From a virus: a stretch of DNA of 30,695 nt. The translations under genes were made by a program, and so were the position numbers. Under the pieces are notes generated by a model that saw only the letters and a list, made by a program, of their open reading frames with translations, did no database searches and was not told where the DNA came from. Location of the stretch: the IMG/VR virus record IMGVR_UViG_3300042317_000848, positions 1 through 30,695 of that record. One strand, given 5' to 3'. Positions 967 through 30,695 of this stretch are shown one piece after another. The first letter of the stretch is position 1. Every line of letters starts with the position of its first letter.

Positions 967-2224
967 TTGCGCCCCCCTGCGATTGATCCTGACCCGATGC
1001 CGCCCGGTCCAACGTCGAGAACCCGAGCTGTAGGAACGTCTGGTCGGCCGCGTCCGTCTCGAGCGGAGGCATATCCTCGAGGGCTCGGATCTCGTTTGGC
1101 GTGATGGCCGAGACCTGGAACAACGCCTGAAACAGGGCGGCCCGGGCGGCGGCGTCACCGCGGAGAAGGCCGCGGTTATCGAGCTTGGCGTATACGTCGT
1201 CGCCATAGGTCGACAGGATCGAGCGGTCGATCGCCTGCTCGAACCGGCGAGCCCAGGGGAGGAGCGTGTAGACCTGGGCCGATAGCCATTCCTGCTCGAC
1301 GCTCGCCCACCGGCCGGCGGCCTCGTGGCCGATCATGCTCGAGGGGATGCCGAAGGCCCGGGCGATCTCGCCCGTGATCGCGTTTCGCAGTTCCATAAAC
1401 TGCGCCTGCTCGACGTTGGCCTCGATGACCTTCGCCTCGACCTTCTTCGGCAGGATCGCCGTCTTCCCGCGGTTGCGGGGGCCGCCGTACATCTCGCGCC
1501 ACTGTTGCCGCAGGCTGGCGACCGCGGCGTCGGGAATCGCCTCCTGGGTCTGGAGCACGACATCGGGGCGGGCAGAGTTTTCCCAGAGGGACGTGGCCGC
1601 TACGTCCAGCTTGCGGGCGAGCGAGATCGCCGTCCCGCACAGCTCGGCCGGCACCATGCCCGTGTAGCCGTTGTCGGACATCCACCGGAAGTGGAGCACC
1701 TCCGACTGCTGAAAGGTCCGCGTGCCGTCGGGACCCCAAAACTGATACTCGATGGTCTGATTCGCCAGGAGCCTGGGCGTCACCCGCGACGGGTGCATCG
1801 GGACGAGGCTCGTCGCGAACCCACGCTCCCCGGGCACGATCCGCGAGTAGGCGTTCCCCCAGAGGGCGCAGTGATGGGCCATCAACTCCGTCCACTCGTA
1901 GGACGACTGCCAGCCGTTAGGGACCTTCGAGAGCGTGCGGTAGACCGGCAGGTCGCGGGCCTCGGCCCGGCGGCCGTCGCCAAGATTCCGCATAACGTGG
2001 ATCGGGCAGCTCGCGATCGACTGGGCGATAAACCGGACGCACGCCAGGATGGCCGTTACCCGCATCGCCGTTTGGGCGCTGATCGCGTCCGGACTCTCGA
2101 CGAAGAACGACGAGTCGACCGCCCGCATCTCGAAGGTGTGCATGGGCCGCTTGCCCGCCCGGCTCCGCGTCGATCGCGTAGATCGTTTGGGTGTAGTCGA
2201 CTTGGCGGAGGGCTTGCGGCTCAT
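950..2224 (-). CDS. HK97-family portal protein
   Basis: A 424-residue protein of the HK97/lambda-like portal family, the dodecameric ring at the capsid vertex through which DNA is pumped and to which the neck attaches. Family-like stretches are the N-terminal AVDSSFFVESPDAISAQTAM, a segment around ALWGNAYSRIV, LRNAITGEIARAFGIPSSMIG, and the C-terminal SAITPNEIRALEDMPPL. The start chosen is ATG at 2224, whose ATG overlaps the terminase stop (ATGA). Longer forms would run into the terminase gene. Met28 is an alternative start, since the first 25 residues are a Ser/Lys/Arg-rich leader. The gene lies in the standard order TerS-TerL-portal-protease. Confidence 0.93.
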   Translation of the reverse strand: MSRKPSAKSTTPKRSTRSTRSRAGKRPMHTFEMRAVDSSFFVESPDAISAQTAMRVTAILACVRFIAQSIASCPIHVMRNLGDGRRAEARDLPVYRTLSKVPNGWQSSYEWTELMAHHCALWGNAYSRIVPGERGFATSLVPMHPSRVTPRLLANQTIEYQFWGPDGTRTFQQSEVLHFRWMSDNGYTGMVPAELCGTAISLARKLDVAATSLWENSARPDVVLQTQEAIPDAAVASLRQQWREMYGGPRNRGKTAILPKKVEAKVIEANVEQAQFMELRNAITGEIARAFGIPSSMIGHEAAGRWASVEQEWLSAQVYTLLPWARRFEQAIDRSILSTYGDDVYAKLDNRGLLRGDAAARAALFQALFQVSAITPNEIRALEDMPPLETDAADQTFLQLGFSTLDRAASGQDQSQGGANGTGA

Positions 2225-3858
2225 AGAGAGATAATGTTCCAGTCTTGCTCGGCGGGATCGTCGGACGTGATCGCCAGGGCGACGGCGTTCACTAGGGCGG
2301 ATATGCCGTCGATCTTCTCCGCGCTCTTTGCTTTGTCCGGCTTCACGGCCCCGGTCGGGTCCGTGTAGAGGCAGACGTTGTTTGCGTTCCACGCCGCGAT
2401 CGGATTCGCCGGGCTCCCCGTCCGAAGCCGGCCCTCGAGCACCAGGGCCTCGAGAAGCTTGCAGGGAGCGTTTAGCGTCGCCGTTCGCTGTGTGATGGAT
2501 ACCACTTCAATATCGGCACGCTGAAGTAGCGTTGCGGCTGCGCCGGCCTGCCACGGGTCCACTCCGAGACGCTGGATTCGGTGGGCCTCGGCGTATTCGA
2601 TGATGTCACGGGCCACCTTCTCGTGATCGAGGCGAGCCCCCTCGGTCACCGTCAGCCAGCCTTCCCGTATCCAAGTGGCATACGGAATCCGGTCCCGCTT
2701 CTCCCGGTCGGCGACCGTGCCCTCCGGCACCCAATACTTCCACTCGGCAAAGTAGGAGCCGTCCTTCTCGCGGTAGAGGAAGCAGGCGCTCGTCATGTCG
2801 AGGTTGCTCGCCAGGTCGAGGCCGACGACGCACGTCCGGCCGTCGAGCGGCTCGAGCGGCGGCTTCGCCGTCGCGGCCCAGGCGTCGGCGGATCGAAACC
2901 ATCGGTTGTCGCTGGCCGTGTCCCAGACGTTGAGCGAGTAGCGGAGAAACTTCGACATCTTCCGTGGGTCCGTCGTCGCGTCCTGGTAATCGGCCGCGAA
3001 CTCGTCCTCCGGGAAGGCGATGCCGAGCGACGGATTGGCCTTCCGCCAGACCGCCGGGTCCGAGAAGTCGTCGGTCTCGTCGGCCGCGTAGATCAGGCCG
3101 TAGAAGGTAGGGTTGGAGGCGGGGTCGGCCATCACGAGCTGGCAGTCTTTCCACCACTGCCAGCCGATGCCGTTCCGGTTGTCGCCCGCTGTGGAGATCG
3201 AGATCACGAGGCCGTTAGTCGTGCCTCGCGTCGCGTACATGAGGGCCTGCACCAGGTCGGGCGACTTGAAGGAGTGGATCTCGTCCAGGATGACCGAGCC
3301 GTTGAGGCCTTCATTCCGCCAGGAGTCGGACGAGAGACAGCGGATCTCCTTCCCCGTCTGCTTGTTGCGGATCACGCTCCTCGAGTCGACGACATCGAGC
3401 AGGGCCGACAACTTCGGCGAGGCCTCCACGCTCTGCCGCACCATCCGGTACATGGTGCGAGCCTGGAGGCGATCGTTGGCCGCGAGGAACACGTCCTGGG
3501 CCGGGGCGTGGCAGGTGATGATGAACTGCGCGAGCTGCGACATCAGGCTCGATTTTCTGTTCTTCTTCGGGACGAAGATCCCGGCCCGGCGGTAGCGGAG
3601 GCGGCCGTCGGGACGACGCCACCCGAACAGCGGACGGATGACGCTGTCCCGCTGCCAGGGAATCAGCTTGATTCGTTTTGGCGGCCCGCCGCCCTCGTCG
3701 GGATGACGGCACAGCGTCTCAATGAACTCGCACGGAGCCTCGGCGGCCGCGGCGTCCCACTGATACCCGGCGACGTGCTCCGGTCGCCGCTGCGGATCAG
3801 ATGCCGCGGACCGAGAGCTTTTTGAGGAGCGCGGATTCTTCGTCTTCTTCGCTGGCAT
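2221..3858 (-). CDS. terL: Terminase large subunit
   Basis: A 545-residue packaging ATPase and headful or cos nuclease that translocates DNA into the prohead. The ATPase half shows a modified Walker A, VPKKNRKSS (96-104), a Walker B VILDE (189-193) and a coupling motif ISTAG (221-225). The nuclease half has GLDLAS (Asp348) and a C-terminal KIDGISALVNAV. This set matches the HK97/YmfN-like Terminase_1 family, and the length is normal. The start ATG at 3858 has AGGAG about 7 bases upstream and overlaps terS by 62 bp; upstream in-frame codons look like shadow sequence. The end overlaps the portal start as ATGA. Confidence 0.95.
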   Translation of the reverse strand: MPAKKTKNPRSSKSSRSAASDPQRRPEHVAGYQWDAAAAEAPCEFIETLCRHPDEGGGPPKRIKLIPWQRDSVIRPLFGWRRPDGRLRYRRAGIFVPKKNRKSSLMSQLAQFIITCHAPAQDVFLAANDRLQARTMYRMVRQSVEASPKLSALLDVVDSRSVIRNKQTGKEIRCLSSDSWRNEGLNGSVILDEIHSFKSPDLVQALMYATRGTTNGLVISISTAGDNRNGIGWQWWKDCQLVMADPASNPTFYGLIYAADETDDFSDPAVWRKANPSLGIAFPEDEFAADYQDATTDPRKMSKFLRYSLNVWDTASDNRWFRSADAWAATAKPPLEPLDGRTCVVGLDLASNLDMTSACFLYREKDGSYFAEWKYWVPEGTVADREKRDRIPYATWIREGWLTVTEGARLDHEKVARDIIEYAEAHRIQRLGVDPWQAGAAATLLQRADIEVVSITQRTATLNAPCKLLEALVLEGRLRTGSPANPIAAWNANNVCLYTDPTGAVKPDKAKSAEKIDGISALVNAVALAITSDDPAEQDWNIISL

Positions 3859-26408: not shown

Positions 26409-27623
26409 TCAGGCGGCCTCGACGAGCTTCGCGACGAAGCTGGCGTCGTGGTTCGCGATGCCGACCCGCTGCGTTCCGCGGTAGACGACCGAGTCCTTCG
26501 CGAAGCCAGCGTGCTCGCTGGCCGCGACCTGGAGGCCGTTGGCCTTGTAGGCCACCGCGGTCGCCGAGGCGAAGTCGCCGTAGAGGGCGAGCGTGCCAGC
26601 CGGCAGGCCGAGGCATCGGTAGACCGGAGCGCCCATGACCACCGGGAGAACCCGGTCGCCGACGGTCGTCGACTGCGAGACGATGCTCGCCTTCATGATG
26701 TGCGCCCAGCCGGCCGAGCTCACCACCCAGGCGGTGTTGCTCGCGCGGCTGTCGATCTTCCCGACCAGCTCGGCCAGGTCGACGCCGTCGTTGTCGGCAC
26801 CGGCCTCGACCGTGTTGCCCGCGGCGATCTCGGAGACGAGGCCGTCGATGCCCTTGCCAGCGTCGCCCTGGAGCCACACGGTGTCGATCTTCTTCGCGAT
26901 CGCCAGGCCGAACCGATTCGACACGGTCTGGGCGAGGGCCACCACCGCGGCGGAGTCCTCGGCCAGCTCGTTCGAGATCTCGATCAGGCGGCCCATCTTG
27001 TGGAGGGCGATCTCGACCTTGTCAGTCGTCATGTCGTCACCAGTGATGGTGCCGAGCTCGTCGAACCACGAGGCCTCGATCTCACCGATCTTCGGCACGG
27101 TGATGGAGTTACTCGAGGTCTGGTACAGGCTCGCGACCTGGAGGCCGACCGAGGCGTACTGCAGCACGTCGATAAAACCACGGAAGAGCTCGGGGGAGAC
27201 GAGCTCTTCGCCCGCACCCGCCGTGCCCGTGCCCATCGCCCGGGCCTCGGCCATGTTGCCGCGAGCCAAAGCTCGCAGGAACCGGCCAGCCTTTGCGGCG
27301 TCGTCCGTCGAGCCGTAGCCGGTCGGCGTGCGGCCGATGTGGATGGCCGGGGCCTTCCGCTTCTCCGCCTCGACCTCGGTCCGGCTGGTCGTGTCGACCA
27401 GGTGCGACCGAAGGCTCTCGACGGCCGCGTTGCGCTTGGCCTCGAGCTCGTTCTGACGCACCATCTCGGCGCTGATCTCGTTGGCCCGCGTGGTGGCCGC
27501 CTCGAGGTTCCCCTCGATCGTTGCCGCCTCGGCGTCATCGGCCGGGGTCATGGCACGGAGAGACTCGATCTCGGTCGCGACCTTCGCGGCCTCGTCTTGC
27601 AGTTTGCGGATGATCGTCGACAC
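26409..27623 (-). CDS. HK97-family major capsid protein
   Basis: A 404-residue protein. Residues 1-95 form the delta (scaffold) domain, a coiled coil (IIRKLQDEAAKVATEIESLR; DAEAATIEGNLEAATTRANE) that is removed by the prohead protease. The HK97 fold follows: GEELVSPELFRGFIDVLQYA, then SNSITVPKIGEIEASWFDEL, GRLIEISNELAEDSAAVVAL and AWVVSSAGWAHIMKASIVSQ, ending GIANHDASFVAKLVEA. The start is GTG 27623 with AGGAG nine bases upstream; no ATG is nearby. The gene is flanked by hairpins and separated from the protease gene by seven accessory genes, which is not the usual HK97 order. Confidence 0.94.
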   Translation of the reverse strand: MSTIIRKLQDEAAKVATEIESLRAMTPADDAEAATIEGNLEAATTRANEISAEMVRQNELEAKRNAAVESLRSHLVDTTSRTEVEAEKRKAPAIHIGRTPTGYGSTDDAAKAGRFLRALARGNMAEARAMGTGTAGAGEELVSPELFRGFIDVLQYASVGLQVASLYQTSSNSITVPKIGEIEASWFDELGTITGDDMTTDKVEIALHKMGRLIEISNELAEDSAAVVALAQTVSNRFGLAIAKKIDTVWLQGDAGKGIDGLVSEIAAGNTVEAGADNDGVDLAELVGKIDSRASNTAWVVSSAGWAHIMKASIVSQSTTVGDRVLPVVMGAPVYRCLGLPAGTLALYGDFASATAVAYKANGLQVAASEHAGFAKDSVVYRGTQRVGIANHDASFVAKLVEAA

Positions 27624-27684: not shown

Positions 27685-27700
27685 CGCTGAAGTGTCAGCG
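27685..27700 (-). promoter_or_regulatory. Hairpin ahead of the capsid gene
   Basis: In the minus sense CGCTGA-CACT-TCAGCG forms a 6-bp stem with a 4-base loop and includes the stop codon of the upstream Cys-rich gene. It stands 62 bases before the capsid GTG. Together with the hairpin at 26352-26386 it brackets the capsid gene; RNA processing or attenuation are possible roles. Confidence 0.4.
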
Positions 27701-27994
27701 TACTACCGTAGGACATTTGCCATTCGGGCAGGCGGGCTTCGTGCCGCTCTTGCACTTGCACGAGCTCGGGCATGGGCAGGCCGTGCGGTGGCCGTCGCCG
27801 TGGACGATGTAGCCCTTCCCGCCGCAGTCGGTGCAGCACTCGCCCGGCTTCGGCTTCGGGGCCGGCGGCGTGGTGTCGACCGCCATCGAGGCCCGCGCCG
27901 CGGCGACGGCGGCCGCCGCCCGCGGGGCCTCGGCGTCGATCGCCTGCGGATCGGACGAGAGCCAGACCAGGAAGGCGACCACGGCGTCTCGCAT
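27695..27994 (-). CDS. Small protein with DnaJ-type zinc finger motif (99 aa)
   Basis: Residues 1-14 are hydrophobic (RDAVVAFLVWLSS), then an Ala-rich helix, a Pro-rich hinge (TTPPAPKPKPGE) and a Cys-rich C-terminus: CCTDCGGKGYIVHGDGHRTA, then CPCPSSCKCKS and CPNGKC, with ten Cys in 42 residues. CxxCGGKG is the zinc-binding unit of DnaJ-like chaperone centres. The protein overlaps the upstream stop (TAATG). It ends the accessory cassette ahead of the capsid gene. Thiol or metal binding is likely; the partner is unknown. Confidence 0.7.
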   Translation of the reverse strand: MRDAVVAFLVWLSSDPQAIDAEAPRAAAAVAAARASMAVDTTPPAPKPKPGECCTDCGGKGYIVHGDGHRTACPCPSSCKCKSGTKPACPNGKCPTVVR

Positions 27995-28266
27995 TAGAGC
28001 GCCCCCGCGTGATTGAGCAGCGGGAACCCGTCGTCGCCGACCTCGGACCGGACAAGCCGCTGCTCGGCCTTCGCCTCCGGCGGCGGCTCCGCGATCAGCA
28101 TGAACCACAAGGCGTTTTTCGCCGCCTTGGCGATGAACCGCAGCACCGGCCGCGATGGCTGCGGCTGCGGCCCGACCGGCGACTTCTCAGACGAGGAGAG
28201 CCACCAGCCGGCGAGCAGGCAGGCTAGGCAAACGTAGACGAGATGTTTCTTCGAGAGGGTCACCAT
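27994..28266 (-). CDS. Small membrane protein (90 aa)
   Basis: A single hydrophobic segment at the N-terminus (HLVYVCLACLLAGWWLSS, residues 8-25), a Pro linker and an amphipathic region RPVLRFIAKAAKNALWFMLI then AEPPPEAKAEQRL. The second hydrophobic stretch FIAKAAKNALWFMLI may also touch the membrane. The family is unknown. It overlaps the papain-like gene by 7 bp (ATGGTGA) and lies between two proteins with Cys/His chemistry, so it may be the membrane partner of the protease. Confidence 0.65.
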   Translation of the reverse strand: MVTLSKKHLVYVCLACLLAGWWLSSSEKSPVGPQPQPSRPVLRFIAKAAKNALWFMLIAEPPPEAKAEQRLVRSEVGDDGFPLLNHAGAL

Positions 28267-29369
28267 ATCGGCCTCGGGTCGAGAGGGGCGGGAAACGAGC
28301 GAGACAGGGATTCCGGCGGGAACGGCGCGAGCCACTCGCCGTGATGCAGGTCACGCCAGCCGAAGCCCTGGACGGAGCCGACGGCGAACGAGTCGAGGCC
28401 GGCGAGCATTTGGTCGACCGTTTCCCGCGATACCCAGAACGAGCCTTCCGGCTGGTCGTCGGGCCAGACAGGGCCGGCGTTCCACTTGCTCCAACTGTTC
28501 AAGGCGAGCAGGCCGTCACGCGGCGACCCGTTCTTTTTGTAGCGGACCGCGGCGAAGCAAAGACAGTGAGCCCAGCGCGTCGTGCTACGGCCTTCCGGAG
28601 AGGCCCATCCGCCGTCGTCGCGGCTGGACGAAAAGCCGCTCATCGAGCAGACGGCAATCGGGAACCCTGCCTCAATGGCGGCGGCCGCCTCGTCAAAGTT
28701 GCGGACTAGGGCGACGTGTTTGGCCGGATGCTTCTTCGCCACGGCGTCGAGCTTGCCGCCGTCGCCCTGGCCGCCGTTGCCGTAGTTGCCCCAGTTCTTC
28801 GCCCGCTGCGAGTCGTACTCGCGGAGGTCGTGGCCGCCGACCTCCTCGCGGAAGATGGTGCCCCAGTCTCGATACCAGCGGGCCGCGGCTGCGCCGTAGG
28901 AGCCATCGCTCCAGCCGCCGCCGCCCTCTGGTTTGTTGCGAGCCTCTACGCGGGACCCTCCATAGCAGCTCTCCGAACTGACGCGGAGCGGCGGCTCGGC
29001 CAGGCGGCCGGTCTCCCAGTCGACGCAAAGGGCGATATAGACGGCGTGCTCGCCCCATCCCATCGAGACACAGTCGCCGATCCCCTGCCGGATGCACTTC
29101 CACGGCTTCCCGTACCTGGCGGCGTGGGCCTTGTACATGGCCCGATACAGGAACGTATCGACGCCTTTCGCCTGGGCGATGGTCTCCGCCCCAGCGTCGC
29201 GGAAAAGGGGCTGCGGCAGCTCGGCGAGAAACTCGCGGACGCCTTCCGGGTCCGGCGTGTAGCCGAAGTCGGCCGTCATCCGCTGCCTGGGGCGGAGGCC
29301 GAGGTAGATCGCCGCGAGCACCAGGAGCCCGGCGGCCAGCCAGCGGAAAGCCTTGTCAGCGGGCAGCAT
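28260..29369 (-). CDS. Membrane-anchored papain-like (C1) cysteine protease
   Basis: A 369-residue protein. Residues 8-25 (FRWLAAGLLVLAAIYLGL) form a signal-anchor; the rest would face outward from the cytoplasm. The catalytic set of clan CA C1 peptidases is in order: Gln95 (oxyanion) and Cys100 in RQGIGDCVSMGWGEH, His268 in TTRWAHCLCFAAVRY, and Asn291-Ser-Trp293 in LLALNSWSKWN. Other striking segments are SSESCYGGSRVEARN and GWSDGSYGAAAARWYRDWGT. Spacing from His to Asn is 23, against 16 in papain. I chose ATG 29369 over longer forms because it begins the hydrophobic anchor. It is in a cassette of membrane proteins; a lytic or envelope-cleaving function is plausible but unproved. Confidence 0.82.
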   Translation of the reverse strand: MLPADKAFRWLAAGLLVLAAIYLGLRPRQRMTADFGYTPDPEGVREFLAELPQPLFRDAGAETIAQAKGVDTFLYRAMYKAHAARYGKPWKCIRQGIGDCVSMGWGEHAVYIALCVDWETGRLAEPPLRVSSESCYGGSRVEARNKPEGGGGWSDGSYGAAAARWYRDWGTIFREEVGGHDLREYDSQRAKNWGNYGNGGQGDGGKLDAVAKKHPAKHVALVRNFDEAAAAIEAGFPIAVCSMSGFSSSRDDGGWASPEGRSTTRWAHCLCFAAVRYKKNGSPRDGLLALNSWSKWNAGPVWPDDQPEGSFWVSRETVDQMLAGLDSFAVGSVQGFGWRDLHHGEWLAPFPPESLSRSFPAPLDPRPIW

Positions 29370-29799
29370 CGGCGGCGGCCCTCGCGATCTCACGGTAGGC
29401 CGCGATCCACGCGGCCCGCTGCTCCGGTGACACCGGCCCGCCCGACTTGCCGAGCTTCTCGACGAGGTAGGCCTCGACGGCATCGCGGGCTCGCGGATGC
29501 TTCTCGCCCAGGCTCACGCCACGGCAGCGGAGTTGACGGGCTCGCGTGCGGAGCGTGTCAAAGTGGATGCCGGCCGTGTAGAAGGGCTCGGCCTGCATCG
29601 AGTCCCACTCGATCTCGCTGGCGATCTCTTCGCACAGGGCCGCCGTCGTCGCGGCGTCCTCCGAGGCCTCGGGGCCGACGAACTTCCCGCGGAGCTCGAG
29701 CTCGCCGCCGGGGGCGGGCGTCGGCTGCGGCGTCCGCTCGCCACGCCAGGCCGCCAGGCCCAGCACCAGGAGCACGCCAGCCAGCACGACGCGAATCAT
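29356..29799 (-). CDS. Signal-anchored hypothetical protein (147 aa)
   Basis: Residues 2-18 (IRVVLAGVLLVLGLAAW) are a signal peptide or anchor, followed by a Pro-rich spacer and a helical soluble domain: EDAATTAALCEEIASEIEWD, then HFDTLRTRARQLRCRGVSLG, then EQRAAWIAAYREIARAAADA. Two Cys could form a disulphide outside the cytoplasm. The family is unknown. It overlaps its neighbours at both ends (ATGA upstream; 14 bp with the protease), so it is probably a partner or inhibitor-like companion of the papain-like enzyme. Confidence 0.65.
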   Translation of the reverse strand: MIRVVLAGVLLVLGLAAWRGERTPQPTPAPGGELELRGKFVGPEASEDAATTAALCEEIASEIEWDSMQAEPFYTAGIHFDTLRTRARQLRCRGVSLGEKHPRARDAVEAYLVEKLGKSGGPVSPEQRAAWIAAYREIARAAADAAR

Positions 29800-30041
29800 G
29801 GCTGGTCGCTCCCGGCCACCAGAGCGAGCGTCAGCGTGTCGATGGCCGCCCGCTGGTCGTCGCCAAGTTGCCGCGTCTGGAGCAGGCGAGCCCGCACGCG
29901 GGCCAGGTCGCCGATCGCCGACTGATAGGTCGGGGCCGCCGGCTTGCCTGGCTGGGCCACCAGGATCGACGCGCCGGCCTTCAGCATCCACGGCGAGAAG
30001 AGGAGAAGCAGGGCAGCACCAACGAGCAGGTAGGGAATCAT
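29796..30041 (-). CDS. Small membrane protein (81 aa)
   Basis: Residues 2-27 (IPYLLVGAALLLLFSPWMLK and onward) form one transmembrane segment, followed by a short helical tail (YQSAIGDLARVRARLLQTRQ; LGDDQRAAIDTLTLALVAGS). One membrane span plus an alpha-helical soluble part is the shape of spanin-like or holin-accessory proteins, but no motif proves it. Both ends overlap as ATGA. Confidence 0.65.
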   Translation of the reverse strand: MIPYLLVGAALLLLFSPWMLKAGASILVAQPGKPAAPTYQSAIGDLARVRARLLQTRQLGDDQRAAIDTLTLALVAGSDQP

Positions 30042-30409
30042 GAGGCCCTCACGAGCGGAAGCAGCGTCTCGACGGCCCCGGATGCCAGGGCAAGCAGGAG
30101 CGAGCGGACGGCCGGCTTCACGAGGAGCCAGACCGGGAAGGCGTAGGCCGGGACCGCCTTGTCGGCGACCTGGTCGAAGAGCAAGGCCACAGCGGCCAGG
30201 ACGGCCGCCTTCTTCTCTGGGCCTGGCAGCCTCGCCACGTCGACCCAGTCGATCGACAGGCGGAGGAGCGCGACGGCGAGCTCGCCGAACTCGGCCCAGG
30301 TGATCCCGTCGGCTGCGGCCACCTTGGCGGAGGCGATGAACGCCGTCACCTTCTCGGCCATCAATTCCGGCCACCCGGCGGCGGCGATCGGCGCGTCGGT
30401 GATGCTCAT
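30038..30409 (-). CDS. Membrane protein, holin candidate (123 aa)
   Basis: The N-terminal half is an amphipathic helical region (ELMAEKVTAFIASAKVAAAD; FGELAVALLRLSIDWVDVAR). The C-terminal half has two hydrophobic stretches, AAVLAAVALLFDQVAD (68-83) and FPVWLLVKPAVRSLLLALAS (91-110), with a short positively charged interruption. The size and layout are those of small holins, though no class is recognised. GGAGACGGAG precedes ATG 30409, and the ATG overlaps the zinc-ribbon stop (ATGA). It heads the row of membrane proteins before the cysteine protease. Confidence 0.6.
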   Translation of the reverse strand: MSITDAPIAAAGWPELMAEKVTAFIASAKVAAADGITWAEFGELAVALLRLSIDWVDVARLPGPEKKAAVLAAVALLFDQVADKAVPAYAFPVWLLVKPAVRSLLLALASGAVETLLPLVRAS

Positions 30410-30567
30410 CGGCTCCGTCTCCAAATCTGGTCCGCCGGCACGACCCGCGACCGGCGGGCCTGGCAACAGACACACTCGAGGTACTGGACCTGTTGCGAGC
30501 CGGCTCGCCGTGACGAGTCGACCCGCATCCGGTCGCCGCATTTGCTGCACTTAGCGGGGGCGGGCAT
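30406..30567 (-). CDS. Zinc-ribbon peptide (53 aa)
   Basis: Found by hand: ATG 30567 to TGA 30406. The peptide opens MPAPAKCSKCGDRMRVDSSR and continues to LECVCCQARRSRV. Two Cys pairs, CSKC (Cys7, Cys10) and CVCC (Cys32, Cys34, Cys35), about 22 residues apart, make a rubredoxin/zinc-ribbon-like knuckle, with a strongly basic tail. It overlaps the protease end by 17 bp and the next gene as ATGA, so the frame is supported by coupling. It may bind nucleic acid or protein. Confidence 0.65.
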   Translation of the reverse strand: MPAPAKCSKCGDRMRVDSSRRAGSQQVQYLECVCCQARRSRVVPADQIWRRSR

Positions 30568-30695
30568 TGGCTCGCATCCTTGCGACGGCGGCCGCGGCGG
30601 CGGCCCGGGCTCCGACGAGCGTCGACACCTTCACGGCCCGCGGCTCCGCCGCTGCCGACGGAATCGTCTCTGGCGTGTCGTCGATCCAGATGTCG
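30551..30695 (-). CDS. C-terminal end of prohead protease-HAD fusion (redundant copy plus true stop)
   Basis: The right end of the window repeats the codons of 1-127 and then continues to the real end of the gene: after ARMRA come NARPR and TAA at 30553-30551. It covers the WIDDTP motif IV region and the Ala-rich tail. It is not a second gene: joined at 30568/1 it completes the 327-residue protein described for 1-966. Confidence 0.9.
   Translation of the reverse strand, partial: DIWIDDTPETIPSAAAEPRAVKVSTLVGARAAAAAAVARMRANARPR
30569..30695. repeat. Right copy of 127-bp direct terminal repeat
   Basis: This copy matches bases 1-127 exactly and shows that the molecule closes into a circle of 30,568 bp or is circularly permuted. 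Confidence 0.95.

Follow-up and report, generated by a model that had tools for sequence, protein, structure and literature searches.

Between the prohead protease gene and the major capsid protein (MCP) gene of the virus record IMGVR_UViG_3300042317_000848 lies a block of seven minus-strand open reading frames (ORFs), g1 to g7, of which g2-g7 form one conserved module centered on g5, a predicted membrane-anchored, papain-like cysteine protease. The record is a complete virus record of 30,695 nt with nearly all of its genes on the minus strand, and its whole length is referred to here as the window. We propose, at a probability of roughly two in three, that the module is a portable, probably late-expressed cassette by which phages of Planctomycetota open the protein-based, peptidoglycan-poor envelope of their hosts. 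The initial annotation had described seven genes at 27695-30567 between the capsid protease and capsid genes, and all of these ORFs were confirmed, encoding proteins of 53 (g1), 123 (g2), 81 (g3), 147 (g4), 369 (g5), 90 (g6) and 99 (g7) amino acids (aa) in tight packing, with ATGA-type overlaps at most junctions.

With g5 as the query, a single search of viral contigs yielded 50 loci, and an alignment-based search gave 498 matching stretches, with 80 loci kept; the g5 proteins were grouped at 90% identity into 37 representatives, and the neighbor families were defined by seed searches. Among these representatives, g4 was located immediately 5' of g5 in 34/36 and g6 immediately 3' of g5 in 36/36, while the module began with g2 and, in most cases, closed with g7 or a thioredoxin gene. 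The median gap at the main junctions ranged from -14 to +8 bases, the genes mostly overlapping. Since the order is retained in dozens of divergent loci, it goes beyond chance, and the homologues were found linked rather than singly or scattered. The earlier view of the block as one functional unit, for which a search for the same gene order in other phages and prophages had been proposed, thus held across unrelated phages for g2-g7. g1, which had been counted in the unit as well, was found only in the protease-MCP layout and is regarded as a part of that layout.

The module was found in at least six genomic contexts. The protease-MCP placement seen in the window is shared by 19 of the 37 representatives; the phages with other contexts carry no homologue of the window TerL, portal, protease or capsid. 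In L017 the module closes the late region and has an integrase as its neighbor; in L026 and L041 it separates a head-decoration gene from the terminase. Early genes in reverse orientation adjoin it in L047, the terminase follows it directly in a Blastopirellula marina prophage (L054), and in L055 it is flanked by early genes and the small terminase. Several of these placements are ones in which phage lysis genes usually lie, and the module has the make-up of a lysis cassette, namely a conserved, coupled and portable unit with an anchored or exported hydrolase and small membrane proteins. The same distribution bears on a role of g5 alongside the prohead protease in capsid maturation, which the position of the window block, exactly between the prohead protease and the capsid gene, would favor. 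However, the module also occurs outside the head region and in phages whose capsid, terminase and protease genes are unrelated, g5 is membrane-anchored, and its relatives have an exported thioredoxin partner; such an accessory role is extremely improbable and was rejected because of the unrelated contexts.

The catalytic core of the module is predicted to be g5 (28260-29369, minus strand), whose AlphaFold (AF2) model (predicted local distance difference test, pLDDT, 72; predicted template modeling score, pTM, 0.77) gave members of the papain family, such as xylellain, cathepsins and Cwp84, as its top Foldseek matches, with a VIA Z of 18.9 over 241 residues against xylellain and of 16.3 against Cwp84. 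Two characteristics of papain family C1A were recognized, the two-domain papain-type fold and the ordered Gln-Cys-His-Asn active site. In an alignment of 20 members, eight of them very distant and including distant prophages, Gln95 at the oxyanion-hole position (codon 29085-29087, minus strand), the predicted nucleophile Cys100 (29070-29072) and the predicted catalytic His268 (28566-28568) were conserved in 20/20, and the predicted catalytic Asn291 of the NSW motif (28497-28499) in 18/20, with Gln in two distant members. Because g5 had no Pfam match, including Peptidase_C1, it is filed as papain-like by fold and not as a Pfam member, and its protease activity is a prediction from the modeled fold. 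The relationship was visible by fold comparison alone: phmmer of g5 against PDB sequences gave no meaningful match, and tblastn against 50,697 phage records gave none. Likewise, neither Pfam nor PHROGs placed g5 in a peptidoglycan hydrolase family (amidase, CHAP, NlpC/P60, lysozyme and others). The anchored papain-like protease named in the initial annotation was borne out by the papain fold, the conserved catalytic residues including Cys100, and a predicted N-terminal anchor.

Directly 5' of g5 is g4 (29356-29799, minus strand), a membrane anchor followed by a four-helix domain (AF2 pLDDT 87.9), whose distant relatives are lipoproteins. A search for the fold of this helical bundle gave no match at E < 0.001, a result that does not by itself establish a novel fold. 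A hidden Markov model (HMM) of g4 ranked first the genes directly 5' of the distant proteases (6e-8 and 9e-7, and weakly 5e-3 and 6e-3). At the opposite end of the module, g7 (27695-27994, minus strand) is a Cys-rich protein that had been called DnaJ-zinc-like; it has one DnaJ-type CxxCxGxG motif with further Cys residues, but no Pfam match was obtained, and the four repeats together with PF00684 that mark a DnaJ zinc center were not found. Judging from relatives, the g7 position is linked to thiol chemistry. Prophages of Blastopirellula and related bacteria (L053, L054 and L149) end the module with a gene for an exported thioredoxin (PF13899 or PF00085), and in two more distant planctomycete prophages (L140 and L141) one lipoprotein combines a g7-like Cys cluster with a thioredoxin-like CxxC region, a Pfam thioredoxin match being found for the L141/L131 copy. 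When all genes of nine loci were searched with the g7 HMM, it picked exactly these Cys-cluster-thioredoxin lipoproteins of L140 (E = 1.9e-7) and L141 (E = 2.8e-6). Because the g4 and g7 HMMs find such distant counterparts, the anchored helical protein, the papain-like protease and the Cys/thioredoxin protein form an old trio that has remained together. The upstream membrane proteins of the distant cassettes differ from those of the close cassette. In a further locus (L144:9400-10120), the Cys-cluster and thioredoxin gene beside a distant g5 is broken by an in-frame stop, which suggests a decayed prophage remnant.

The slot between the protease and capsid genes can also be filled in another way. 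L164, L166 and L167 have the same TerL-portal-protease-slot-capsid layout, with a capsid protein 66% identical to that of the window; g2 is retained, and g4-g7 are swapped for a second cassette, which encodes one membrane protein, a 124-aa protein with an anchor, a 290-aa protein, a 246-aa protein that is exported, and a pair of small membrane proteins. The exported protein joins a Cys cluster of the DnaJ type to a trypsin-like protease (PF13365, E = 3.5e-22). This cassette is abundant (114 matching stretches), keeps its order and occurs in other contexts too; it is located at L164:4822-7893, with relatives in L184-L261, and its 290-aa protein is itself a papain-like candidate. g5 and the 290-aa protein were found together in 0/274 loci, a set of partial loci with some redundancy. 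A planctomycete prophage of the Blastopirellula type encodes a relative of the 290-aa protein (28% identity, E = 2e-12) that has an NSWG motif and a weak Peptidase_C1 match (E = 0.015) and adjoins an exported thioredoxin. As the TerL of this prophage is 65% identical to that of L149 while its papain-like protease is different, the slot exchange extends to a second phage type. Because the two cassettes are unrelated, replace each other and share an exported protease with a Cys or thioredoxin partner, they point to one necessary task. Exchange of this kind might alternatively reflect counter-defence, in which the protease would destroy antiviral or membrane proteins of the host. Two exchangeable cassette types do exist, and abundant, exchangeable cassettes are common among anti-defence genes; such genes, however, are usually early, small and single, and the membrane anchors and the Cys-cluster and thioredoxin partners point to the periplasm, so counter-defence appears very unlikely.

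The remaining partners are small. g1 (30406-30567, minus strand) is a zinc-ribbon-like accessory with a weak match to phrog_10675 (E = 6e-4), while g2-g7 gave no family match in Pfam or PHROGs. g2 (30038-30409, minus strand) is helical and weakly hydrophobic, is common to both cassette types, and might be a holin or membrane adaptor. g3 (29796-30041, minus strand) has an N-terminal membrane segment and is supplanted in many relatives by an N-terminal extension of g4; g6 (27994-28266, minus strand), directly 3' of g5, has a moderately hydrophobic N terminus and a conserved C-terminal DG..LNH..GW-like tail. The initial annotation had assigned a hydrophobic segment or anchor to every product except g1. 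By Kyte-Doolittle analysis, a clear N-terminal membrane segment was found only in g3, g4 and g5; g2 was borderline (1.62), and g6 (1.49) and g7 (0.87) fell under the usual membrane-segment threshold. The anchors on g3, g4 and g5 suit the host membrane and not the virion, which speaks against an entry module whose protease and partners would be packaged or tail-associated and digest the envelope at infection. Proteolysis of a protein wall would help entry as well, and the cassette does lie among virion genes in many of these phages, yet its placement varies by phage type with no tie to tail genes; entry is accordingly considered unlikely.

In three loci (L146:10778-11701, L147:3-1133 and L148:8021-9124), a single open frame covers both a membrane segment resembling a holin and a lipoprotein whose helical end is g4-like, reflecting either a fusion or an internal start. 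In L047:2550-2807, L031, L042, L085 and L087, an optional small membrane protein of the PF04226 type (Transgly_assoc, GlsB/YeaQ-like; match made in L047) is encoded between g6 and g7. Directly 3' of the cassette, L053:3591-11800 carries eight tandem paralogous membrane-protein genes (~320-340 aa).

A standard lysis module elsewhere in the genome, which the initial annotation had named as evidence to the contrary, was found neither in the window proteome nor in one other phage scanned. The rest of the window proteome gave 23 Pfam families, none of them endolysin, holin or spanin, and PHROGs yielded no lysis hit for ten window proteins without annotation; for the whole window proteome, the best 25 of 125 PHROGs families were covered. 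In the second, unrelated cassette phage, no lysis family was present among the 25 of 26 Pfam families listed. The absence of another lysis module from the window is a negative of moderate strength. The main rival explanation is that the cassette is a membrane-bound proteolytic moron serving superinfection exclusion or surface remodeling of host envelope proteins during lysogeny or infection, and not lysis. An anchored protease with several small membrane proteins would fit such a moron. So would the occurrence of the cassette in prophages, including one that three Blastopirellula-like genomes have inherited at a shared site, and its position next to an integrase in one layout. In contrast, 19 of the 37 clusters have the cassette inside the head-gene operon in the same direction, no lysis gene was found elsewhere in the proteomes scanned, and in relatives of the window-type phage the cassette is present or replaced and not lost, as expected for an essential function. 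We thus consider the moron rather improbable. The inherited prophage (L054, L150 and L151) is of the Blastopirellula type. Its chromosomal neighborhood is shared by three related genomes, in which the DNA of the locus is ~72-91% identical; it is perhaps domesticated or gene-transfer-agent-like.

Many Planctomycetota lack the usual peptidoglycan wall. Published work (PMC8567305) describes walls made largely of protein in this group, including Cys-rich YTV proteins, and most Planctomycetales as lacking peptidoglycan genes. In the genome collection, relatives of g5 were found in records of Planctomycetaceae, Pirellulales and Blastopirellula, in one unclassified metagenome-assembled genome (MAG) and, perhaps through mis-binning, on a short contig of an alphaproteobacterial MAG; 12 of the 392 Planctomycetota genomes sampled had one. 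The Cys-rich YTV wall protein was detected in 15/15 host genomes tested and in 0/14 control genomes. MraY and MurG over the cut-off were absent from 7/7 close-cassette hosts, against a background of MraY in 333/392 (85%) of the Planctomycetota sample. For the four close-cassette hosts within this sample, all without MraY, p = 5e-4, which becomes p = 0.02 for two independent cases because three of the four share one inherited prophage. The trend between the cassette and MraY absence is suggestive and not settled.

Several observations weigh against the lysis cassette proposed here. MraY was present in 7/8 hosts with distant g5 relatives, so a papain-type cassette does not require a host devoid of peptidoglycan; the idea of such a requirement was weakened by these distant cassettes. 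The MraY association comes from few independent lineages, 3/4 sample hosts carrying the same inherited prophage, and 3/7 close-cassette hosts are MAGs. Planctomycetota as the host of the window virus is a probable assignment from relatives only. No classical holin or spanin was recognized in the cassette, in which g2 is only weakly hydrophobic, and the small membrane proteins near the distant cassettes, upstream in L140, gave very weak Rz-like/holin matches only. The Pfam lysis scan covered the window and one other record, and since profile searches miss many phage lysis genes, the absence of such genes is weak evidence.

On the proposed lysis, g5 would be made at the inner membrane and held there by its N-terminal anchor, its catalytic domain lying outside the cytoplasm. 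Together with g3 and g6, g2 might act on the membrane in place of a holin or antiholin, and g4, a membrane- or lipid-anchored helical bundle beside g5, might hold, chaperone or restrain the protease. g7, like the exported thioredoxin of relatives, could manage thiols, by maintaining the active-site Cys in its reduced state and/or by breaking the disulfides that link wall proteins, and proteolysis of the wall would then be the lytic step instead of peptidoglycan hydrolysis. The initial annotation had suggested lysis or envelope processing based on proteolysis: the proteolytic part is strengthened by the papain fold, the catalytic residues and the second exported-protease cassette in the slot, while lysis is the outcome that we infer. 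The thioredoxin link, the planctomycete hosts and the lack of peptidoglycan genes in the close-cassette hosts go beyond that annotation. The broader notion, that phages lyse peptidoglycan-less bacteria without a peptidoglycan hydrolase, through exported papain-like or trypsin-like proteases and exported disulfide chemistry (thioredoxin or Cys-cluster proteins) digesting a disulfide-linked protein wall, with cassettes exchanged like endolysin cassettes, is in our estimation evenly poised. No prior description of planctomycete phage lysis or of papain-like endolysins was found in the open-access literature, nor an answer there to how phages exit from peptidoglycan-less bacteria. If the proposal is true, a large uncultivated phage group (498 loci matched) uses proteolysis and thiol chemistry, not wall hydrolysis. 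It would also provide an independent argument in the long debate on planctomycete walls, because a lysis enzyme reflects what holds the envelope together, as well as tools for opening these hard-to-handle bacteria. Hundreds of unannotated phage proteins thereby gain a testable function.

The genes surrounding the slot follow the packaging and head order of TerL (2221-3858), portal (950-2143), prohead protease, seven-gene block and MCP. An identical 127-bp direct repeat stands at both ends of the record (1-127 and 30569-30695), so that the genome (~30.6 kb) is circular or terminally redundant, the copy at 1-127 closing it. The HK97-type prohead protease gene (Peptidase_S78, PF04586, E = 1.2e-35; minus strand) is divided by the record ends, positions 1-966 joining 30551-30695 via the repeat, as seen by translation of the junction. 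Its product matches a head maturation protease in PHROGs, residues 198-302 matching families with no assigned function (phrog_4919/4256), and has a C-terminal HAD-like, phosphatase-type extension with a DFDRT motif. This fusion is optional, since the protease of some relatives is short (224-231 aa) and has no HAD-like domain. The HK97-type MCP gene (26409-27623, minus strand; PF05065, E = 1.8e-25) forms the downstream boundary.

In fold and Gln-Cys-His-Asn active site, g5 resembles xylellain, the C1A papain-family proteases and Cwp84, a surface-layer associated protease of the clostridial S-layer; it differs from them in its ~15% identity, the lack of a Pfam C1 match, its membrane anchor and its location in a phage cassette. 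The baculovirus cathepsin V-CATH is likewise a viral papain-family protease that degrades host structures for release, but it belongs to a eukaryotic virus, acts on insect tissue with a chitinase and has no genes in common with the cassette. PeiW and PeiP (C71) of Methanothermobacter phages are likewise cysteine peptidases, used for lysis of a host without murein; unlike g5, they cut pseudomurein isopeptide bonds and belong to another family, and we know of no comparable cassette for them. Both are cited as pseudomurein endoisopeptidases in PMC10318531. The g7 position is similar to exported thioredoxin-like or Dsb-type proteins in the CxxC thioredoxin domains of its relatives, and to DnaJ zinc centers in its one CxxCxGxG motif, whereas g7 itself has neither a J domain nor a thioredoxin domain and its thiol role is putative. 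Among gene cassettes for release, the module would be a variation on what is known; should proteolysis of an envelope without peptidoglycan be confirmed, it would be a kind of lysis for which no description was found. In comparison with the holin-endolysin-spanin cassettes and signal-arrest-release (SAR) endolysins of double-stranded DNA phages, its hydrolase has a papain fold and is not peptidoglycan-cutting, no holin or spanin family is recognized, and a Cys-cluster/thioredoxin partner is present. In common with them, it groups small, coupled membrane genes around a single hydrolase that is anchored and exported and, like the holin-endolysin-spanin cassettes, is portable between phages, with partners swapped without homology and several layouts at the usual lysis-gene positions.

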